A stretch of DNA of 64,000 bases from Thermomicrobium sp. 4228-Ro (lineage in GTDB: Bacteria > Chloroflexota > Chloroflexia > Thermomicrobiales > Thermomicrobiaceae). This document shows, piece after piece, positions 11,996 to 13,769 of the stretch. Location: positions 1,178,001 to 1,242,000 of the forward strand of contig NZ_JAPFQM010000001.1 of assembly GCF_026241205.1 (NCBI RefSeq), written 5' to 3'. The notes under the pieces were generated by a model. The model saw only the letters and a list, made by a program, of their open reading frames with translations. It was not told the DNA's origin and searched no databases. Numbering within the stretch: position 1 is the stretch's first letter; the number at the start of each line of letters is the position of its first letter. The translations under genes and the position numbers were made by a program.

Positions 11996-13249
11996 TCACC
12001 GTGTCACGGTGAGGCCGAGGAGCCCGCCCATCTCGCGGAGCTGCTCGCGGGCCCGCTCGATGTCGCGCCCCTCCCGCGCGGCGGTCAGGAGCCGTTCACC
12101 TGCCTCGGCGAGGAGTTCGATCGCGCGCGGTGTATCGAGGTCGTCGGAGAGGGCAGCGACCATCGCGTCGCGCAGCGGTGCGAGGTCGAGCGGTGTCGCT
12201 GAGCCGCCGGTCGCGTTGACCGCCTCGCGTAACCGCCGGACGAGCGGCTCGAAGCGGGCTGGCCCGTCGTCCTCGTAGGCGAACGGTGTCCGGTAGTGGT
12301 GACTGAGGAGGTAGAGGCGGATCGCATCGCCGGAGTGACGCCGCAGCGTGTCGCGGACGAGGACGAGATTGCCCAGCGATTTCGACATCTTCGCACCCTG
12401 GTATTCGACCATCGCGACATGGACCCAGAAGCGCGCGAACGGCTTGGCGCCGGTATAGCCCTCGGACTGCGCGATCTCGCTCTCGTGGTGCGGATAGATG
12501 AGGTCGTAACCGCCCCCGTGCACGTCGATCTGGAGGCCGAGGTACTTCATCGCCATGGCGCTGCATTCGATGTGCCAGCCAGGCCGTCCCGGTCCCCAGG
12601 GACTGTCCCAGGTCGGTTCGCCGGGCTGGGCAGCTTGCCAGAGAACGAAATCGAGCGGGTCTTCCTTCCGCGGATCCTGCGGATCGGCGCCCCGCTCGGC
12701 CGAGAGCCGGATCATCTCCTCGCGACTACAGCGACAGAGCTGCCCGTAATCCGGATCGCTGGCGACGCGGAAGTAGACGTTCCCGTCCCGCACGTAGGCG
12801 GCGCCGCGTTCGATGAGCCGCTGGATGATCTCGATCATGAGCGGGATTTCTTCGGTCGCTCGGGGGAAAACGGACGGGAAGAGGACGTTGAGCGCGTTCA
12901 GGTCTTCCTGGAACTGGCGGATATAGCGATCACCGAGTCGATCCCAGGGCTCGCCCACCTCACGCGCCTTCCGCAGGATGTCGTCATCGATGTCGGTGAT
13001 GTTCTGGACGTACTTGACGCGCCAGCCATGGAACTGGCAGATCCGATTGAAGACGTCGAAGACGAGATAGGTCATCGCATGGCCCATGTGCGTGGTGTCG
13101 TAGGGGGTCACGCCACAGACGTAGAGTCGTACCGTTCGCCCGTCGGCCGGCGCGAACGGTTCGATCGTTCGAGTGAGCGAATTGAACAGCTGCACGGCTT
13201 CTCGCGCTCCCTCCAGCACTCGCGTCCCTCGCTTCGGGTATCGTACCAT
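11996..13249 (-). CDS. Cysteinyl-tRNA synthetase-family ligase, MshC-like
   Basis: Class I cysteine-activating enzyme of about 417 residues. HIGH-type motif THMGHAMTYLVFD, zinc/cysteine site in YVCGVTPYD, GRPGWHIECSAMAM and KMSKSLGN are all present. Several phrases resemble MshC (L-cysteine:glucosaminyl-inositol ligase of mycothiol synthesis) more than CysS: CGVTPYDTTHMGHA where CysS usually has CGPTVYD, AERGADP...DPLDFVLWQAAQPG, and NLVLV...DAIRLYLLSHHYR. The protein is also short like MshC (about 410) rather than CysS (about 460). Only about 100 residues follow KMSKS, so the anticodon-binding part is small. The ATG at 13249 is 43 bases from the divergent seleno-peroxiredoxin. tRNA charging remains possible; presence of another cysS would decide. 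Confidence 0.75.
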   Translation of the reverse strand: MVRYPKRGTRVLEGAREAVQLFNSLTRTIEPFAPADGRTVRLYVCGVTPYDTTHMGHAMTYLVFDVFNRICQFHGWRVKYVQNITDIDDDILRKAREVGEPWDRLGDRYIRQFQEDLNALNVLFPSVFPRATEEIPLMIEIIQRLIERGAAYVRDGNVYFRVASDPDYGQLCRCSREEMIRLSAERGADPQDPRKEDPLDFVLWQAAQPGEPTWDSPWGPGRPGWHIECSAMAMKYLGLQIDVHGGGYDLIYPHHESEIAQSEGYTGAKPFARFWVHVAMVEYQGAKMSKSLGNLVLVRDTLRRHSGDAIRLYLLSHHYRTPFAYEDDGPARFEPLVRRLREAVNATGGSATPLDLAPLRDAMVAALSDDLDTPRAIELLAEAGERLLTAAREGRDIERAREQLREMGGLLGLTVTR

Positions 13250-13292: not shown

Positions 13293-13769
13293 ATGGCAGG
13301 ACGAGTCGGTGAACGAGCACCGGAATTCCGTTTACCGAGTACGCTCGGTCGACCACTCGCGTTGAGCGAGATCCTCCAAGAGCGGATCGCGCTCCTCGCG
13401 TTCTTCCATTTCGCCTTCACCGGTGGTTGAGCGAACCAACTGTCCCAGTTGTGGGGCAGGATCGAGGAGATCCGTGCGCTCGGCGCCGAGGTCTATGCGA
13501 TCAGTTGCGACAGCCACTTCGCTCAAGCCGCCTGGGCACGCGAACTCGGGGTCGGTTTTCCTTTCCTCAGCGACTGGAACCGCGATGTCATCGCCGCCTA
13601 CGACGTGAAGCTGGACGAGCTGGCGGGCTACCGTGAGGTGCCAGCTCGGGCGCTCGTCGTCGTCGACCGCGACGGGACGATCGTCCACCGGGACCGTGCG
13701 CCGCTCCGAGAACTCCCGGACGTCGAGGCTGCGGTCGCGGCGTTGCGGTCACTGGCGGCGCGCTCCTGA
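13293..13769 (+). CDS. AhpE-type peroxiredoxin, predicted selenoprotein (TGA at 13428)
   Basis: One-Cys peroxiredoxin of the AhpE class, reducing peroxides in the cytoplasm. The frame runs MAGRVGERAPEF ... AFFHFAFTGG, then TGA at 13428-13430, then ANQLSQLWGRIEE ... to a TGA at 13769. All conserved elements continue across the TGA in the same frame. Mycobacterial AhpE has AFTGICQGEL with catalytic Cys45; here AFTGG-U-ANQL puts the TGA at residue 46, exactly on the peroxidatic residue. Downstream are DSHFAQAAWA, FPFLSDWNRDVI and VVVDRDGTI as in the family. Total length with selenocysteine is 158, normal for AhpE. An eight-base-pair hairpin starts ten bases after the TGA. GGGAAGG precedes the ATG. 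It is divergent from the MshC-like gene and overlaps the NDH-2 gene tail to tail by 21 bases. Confidence 0.88.
13440..13459 (+). promoter_or_regulatory. Candidate bacterial SECIS hairpin in peroxiredoxin
   Basis: Eight-base-pair stem (13440-13447 with 13452-13459, one U-G pair) closed by a GUUG tetraloop, starting ten bases after the TGA at 13428-13430. The apical loop lies 18-21 bases after the TGA, the spacing required for SelB-directed selenocysteine insertion, and contains the GU that bacterial loops usually carry. Confidence 0.65.

Follow-up and report, generated by a model that had tools for sequence, protein, structure and literature searches.

A predicted selenocysteine peroxiredoxin of Thermomicrobium belongs to a Chloroflexota clade that lacks the conserved peroxiredoxin proline

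Introduction

When a TGA codon stands inside the reading frame of a peroxiredoxin gene, is it read as selenocysteine (Sec), and what kind of peroxiredoxin does the gene then encode? The locus in question lies in a window of 64,000 nucleotides of Thermomicrobium DNA (the whole stretch that was analysed), where the initial annotation described an AhpE-type peroxiredoxin with Sec at the peroxidatic position. Sec peroxiredoxins were first found in strict anaerobes, and the Thermomicrobiaceae include aerobic thermophiles. In peroxiredoxins the pattern P-x3-[TS]-x2-C has been described as invariant and an arginine as strictly conserved (PMC5719442, PMC8945050), and in Sec peroxiredoxins the corresponding PxxxTxxU is reported to be highly conserved (PMC13188914).

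Results

An in-frame TGA at the peroxidatic codon

The frame that had been described as interrupted by TGA at 13428 does continue in the same frame, up to the TGA stop at 13767-13769 (Table 1). The encoded protein, MAGRVGERAPEFRLPST...FFHFAFTGG-U-ANQLSQLWG... (window 13293-13769, + strand), has the TGA at codon 46. With C replacing U, it matched Pfam AhpC-TSA at residues 5-132 (1.7e-28) and Redoxin (3.2e-19), and both matches extend across the UGA. The UGA aligned with the peroxidatic cysteine of solved peroxiredoxins, and cysteine homologues carrying C opposite U at residue 46 were found, as the initial placement of the TGA at the catalytic cysteine predicted. A ribosome-binding-site-like GGAAGGA was seen by eye 6 bases upstream of the ATG.

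Table 1. Positions, in the 64,000-nucleotide window, of the features discussed in the text
Feature	Position	Strand	Remarks
Selenocysteine peroxiredoxin gene (predicted)	13293..13769	+	158 residues, Sec = residue 46, ordinary UGA stop 13767-13769
In-frame UGA, probably read as selenocysteine	13428..13430	+	Residue 46, peroxidatic position; TGA retained in 15/15 copies of the family and in the wider clade
Codon of His39 (CAT), where peroxiredoxins have the 'invariant' proline	13407..13409	+	7 residues before Sec
SECIS-like hairpin	13440..13459	+	8-bp stem CUGUCCCA/UGGGGCAG, GUUG loop at +18 to +21 after UGA
Arg119, conserved peroxiredoxin active-site arginine	13647..13649	+	Invariant in alignment A1
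Divergent neighbour, second cysteinyl-tRNA-synthetase-like (MshC-like) protein	11996..13225	-	Without DALR/anticodon-binding domains; start approximate

Conservation of the TGA and of the protein on both sides of it

We compared 61 relatives, and close homologues (46-99% identity) were present in 15 genomes of the same family. All 15 copies, isolate assemblies among them, contain exactly one TGA, at codon 46; the counterparts come from Thermomicrobium, Thermalbibacter longus, Sphaerobacter and further Thermomicrobiaceae. In the class and the phylum, a single internal TGA is present in every one of the strongest matches (E < ~1e-36), whereas the weaker ones are a mixture of TGA, Cys and other cases; wherever a class or phylum sequence was read, the TGA was the peroxidatic codon. 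Between Thermomicrobium species, dN/dS was 0.06-0.12 both before and after the UGA, showing that the protein is under equal purifying selection on its two sides. A search of plasmids returned homologues of less than 60% identity, and the three that were inspected were Cys proteins with the proline. Many further peroxiredoxin loci with one in-frame TGA were seen in the order.

Selenocysteine machinery in the genome

The genome (3.07 Mb, 99.9% complete) contains the machinery that the initial annotation had proposed to look for. Profile matches identified SelB (359 bits), SelA (548 bits) and SelD (357 bits), and a single tRNA-Sec with a UCA anticodon was found (73 bits). Among the 19 genomes that bear the Sec peroxiredoxin gene, tRNA-Sec was detected in 16 and not in three drafts of 90%, 62% and 93% completeness; SelA is widespread across the order.

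The SelD gene (L050, G000:C1:1677655-1678590) has one in-frame TGA of its own and therefore probably encodes a selenoprotein itself. Another likely selenoprotein of the same genome, a Prx-like thioredoxin-fold protein with a UPYC motif and an in-frame TGA, is encoded at G000:C6:816873-817310 (- strand, within L053). A tyrosine-recombinase-like integrase ORF (L009:1501-2843) starts, by eye, just downstream of the tRNA-Sec gene, which suggests an element integrated at selC. The LmbE-like gene adjoining selB was matched by no NCBIfam model.

A conserved SECIS-like hairpin downstream of the UGA

The hairpin is exactly as first described, with an 8-bp stem and a GUUG loop 18-21 bases 3' of the UGA (CUGUCCCA-GUUG-UGGGGCAG). 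It folds with a z of -3.1 and is stronger than synonymous recodings of the gene (p 0.004). However, hairpins as strong follow the in-frame TGA in 7 of 290 TGA-interrupted frames of the window (about 2%), and we therefore rejected the presence of a hairpin as proof in itself; it is conservation, not presence, that carries the argument.

The relatives do keep the hairpin, with compensatory pair changes. Within the family, C-G is replaced by U-A at the base of the stem and U-G by U-A or G-C further up, and part of these stem changes come with amino-acid replacements (Gly to Asp, Arg to Lys) in which pairing is preserved. Double-changed cells numbered 10, against 4.0 expected by shuffling (0 of 500 shuffles were as high), and exceeded those of all slid versions. 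Between Thermomicrobium species, third codon positions within the hairpin are identical at 6-7 of 7, compared with 46-71% in the remaining downstream part of the gene. With the loop fixed at this place, the native hairpin was stronger than in synonymous recodings (p<0.05) for 31 of 43 Sec sequences and for none of 16 Cys homologues; as the sequences are related, these counts are not independent trials. Folding tested in a less specific manner pointed the same way but more weakly (p 0.014). AGUU occupies +17 to +20 in 40 of the 43. In a Thermalbibacter-like group (L023-L026) a mismatch interrupts the stem and the hairpin does not exceed its expected strength, and the same lack of excess strength applies to L035, L082 and L083. 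Across the clade, the coding constraint of the protein alone usually does not account for the strength of the hairpin.

How the UGA is probably decoded

A single mutation or sequencing error in a cysteine codon (TGC or TGT) would also yield TGA, in which case the gene would be a pseudogene or misread. This is virtually impossible here, since the same TGA recurs in 15 family genomes including isolate assemblies, a degree of conservation that by itself ruled out both error and decay when we tested for them; moreover, purifying selection downstream of the UGA equals that upstream, the hairpin is conserved and the Sec machinery is in the genome. Reading of the UGA as some other residue, through readthrough or a reassigned stop (Trp, for example), would produce the same open frame and is very improbable. 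Because the gene itself ends with UGA, genome-wide reassignment is unlikely and recoding must be local; stop reassignment, too, was rejected on testing. A residue other than Sec would also sit poorly with the Cys found at this position in all homologues inspected, with the existence of a UCA tRNA-Sec and SelA, SelB and SelD, and with a hairpin placed where SelB needs one.

Selenocysteine at the peroxidatic position, as first proposed, is thus supported by the Sec machinery, the C/U alignment and the hairpin kept in relatives. Judged from its sequence, the gene almost certainly encodes a true selenoprotein, a small 1-Sec peroxiredoxin. UGA 46 would be read by SelB with Sec-tRNA, directed by the hairpin just downstream, a decoding for which sequence and conservation speak, and UGA 159 of the same mRNA would act as the termination codon.

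Placement of the Sec proteins relative to AhpE and Bcp4

We then asked whether 'AhpE-type' is the right name. The protein is a clear homologue of mycobacterial AhpE, to which its family profile scored 85 bits, but the archaeal Bcp4/PrxQ structures scored higher (108-140 bits). The predicted structure (pLDDT 90) has a Prx fold, and its PDB matches were Bcp4 (TM 0.90, best 3hjp) and AhpE (TM 0.88). A 60-row tree united 39 Sec proteins in one clade (86/90 support) and placed AhpE among the Cys proteins of Chloroflexota; the tree is rooted only at the midpoint, and the AhpE branch is long. None of the curated NCBIfam family models reached its cut-off for the Sec peroxiredoxin. The homology to AhpE stands, but rather than naming the protein AhpE we would place it in a Sec clade of its own, alongside the AhpE and Bcp4 groups.

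In family alignment A1 there is no conserved resolving or second cysteine, Cys72 being genus-specific, and the protein has no UxxC or CxxU redox pair. The lack of a conserved second cysteine suggests that it works like a 1-Cys (here 1-Sec) peroxiredoxin. Thr43, or Ser, is kept three residues before Sec throughout the family alignment. From what is known of the family, Thr43 and Arg119 would hold the Sec46 selenolate, which would attack H2O2 or an organic peroxide and be converted to selenenic acid; an outside thiol would have to reduce this acid because no resolving cysteine is conserved. An AhpE-like enzyme with selenocysteine may be 'highly reactive', as the initial annotation put it.

Absence of the proline

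Of the peroxiredoxin signature the protein retains Thr/Ser and Arg but not the proline of P-x3-[TS]-x2-C. The search pattern had left this position, seven residues before Sec, free. In the sequences of this clade it is occupied by Val (24), His (11), Tyr (3), Leu (3), Phe (1) and Ile (1) and never by Pro; near-identical rows are counted here, as is L035, a sequence from outside the main clade. Among the tree rows, Pro was present in 0 of 40 of the Sec clade versus 16 of 16 Cys homologues inspected. The loss coincides with Sec in essentially one clade and thus amounts to one or two events with no independent replication.

A separate clade of three Sec peroxiredoxins from relatives in the order (L037-L039), with the motif FYPADRTSGU, retains the proline, indicating that Sec does not demand its loss.

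The main clade has replaced a proline that in ordinary peroxiredoxins forms part of the pocket wall around the peroxidatic residue. A possible functional reason is that a selenolate, which is ionised already at neutral pH, could put up with the altered pocket or take advantage of it. The missing proline could instead mean that the protein is a Prx-fold selenoprotein that is no longer mainly a peroxidase, acting as another thiol/selenol oxidoreductase or as a chaperone; the whole clade lacks a residue of a pattern called invariant (PMC5719442). We consider this unlikely, because Thr/Ser at -3 and Arg119 are retained, no UxxC or CxxU pair is present and the Prx fold is intact in the predicted model.

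An MshC-like neighbour

A CysS-like gene is divergent from the Sec peroxiredoxin gene in all 15 family loci (62-100% identity). It is a second copy, the full CysS being encoded elsewhere in the genome (526 bits), and its product has the catalytic domain and lacks the DALR and anticodon-binding domains. MshC is the tRNA-independent cysteine ligase of mycothiol synthesis. Against the MshC model (cut-off 485) the neighbour scored 395 bits and the full CysS 305 bits; with 402 bits the neighbour is also above the CysS cut-off.

An MshA-like glycosyltransferase gene is divergent from and adjoins selA (L120:1450-2757, G000:C1; 370 bits, below the cut-off of 462.5), and MshB was not found in the genome (38 bits against a cut-off of 224). 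A complete mycothiol pathway is therefore unsupported, and the idea that a cysteinyl thiol reduces the 1-Sec enzyme is a lead and not a result. Speculatively, the divergent MshC-like cysteine ligase of Thermomicrobiaceae may make, or help to make, the thiol reductant.

Discussion

Sec peroxiredoxins are already known; what is new is a phylum-wide Sec clade without the 'invariant' proline. The gene occurs in a Thermomicrobium-related bacterium and in dozens of relatives across Chloroflexota, a phylum that is unmentioned in both reviews consulted (PMC9312934, PMC13188914). Our literature searches on selenocysteine-containing AhpE and on selenoproteins of Thermomicrobium, mostly confined to papers outside subscription, found no description of the protein.

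One close precedent is the PrxU, or 'Prx TxxU', family (Eubacterium acidaminophilum; PMC9312934, PMC13188914), which likewise has Sec at the peroxidatic position, TxxU and a SelB-type SECIS downstream. However, the NCBIfam PrxU model gave the Thermomicrobium protein only 41 bits (cut-off 270), and the Pro of PxxxTxxU is absent from the Chloroflexota clade. Mycobacterium tuberculosis AhpE, a 1-Cys enzyme (PDB 1xxu, 4x0x, 5c04), shares the single catalytic residue, the AFTG-x-C/U context, the length and the fold, but has Cys and Pro38 and groups with Cys proteins in the tree; its reduction depends on mycothiol and/or mycoredoxin (PMC8945050). The archaeal Bcp4/PrxQ proteins (Aeropyrum pernix 2cx3/4gqc, Sulfolobus 2ywn, 3hjp) are the best profile match among solved structures, with 3hjp the best fold match, and unlike the Sec clade they retain the Pro. 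In 2cx3 and 2ywn a second Cys follows the first by five residues, whereas the Thermomicrobium protein has Ser51 and the family alignment no Cys at +5. The UxxC Prx-like thiol:disulfide oxidoreductase selenoproteins and Prx-SUH (NF045827) have Sec in an AhpC/TSA fold in common with our protein but differ in motifs; the Prx-SUH model gave 19 bits against a cut-off of 298, and the genome encodes a protein of UxxC type at another locus.

One could go further and propose that a phylum-wide class of Sec peroxiredoxins gave up the proline because selenium does not need it, and that in Thermomicrobiaceae the enzyme is paired with an MshC-like ligase making a still undescribed low-molecular-weight thiol reductant. 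We hold this combined proposal to be doubtful.

Annotation in which UGA only ever means stop would cut the gene short or break it in two. The occurrence of Sec peroxiredoxins, first met in strict anaerobes, now includes the Thermomicrobiaceae and reaches across Chloroflexota. A motif described as invariant in peroxiredoxins is broken in this clade, which makes the role of the proline directly testable with Sec/Cys and Pro/His forms of the enzyme. The MshC-like neighbour is a lead towards what reduces the 1-Sec peroxidase, and perhaps towards an undescribed thiol cofactor in the phylum.
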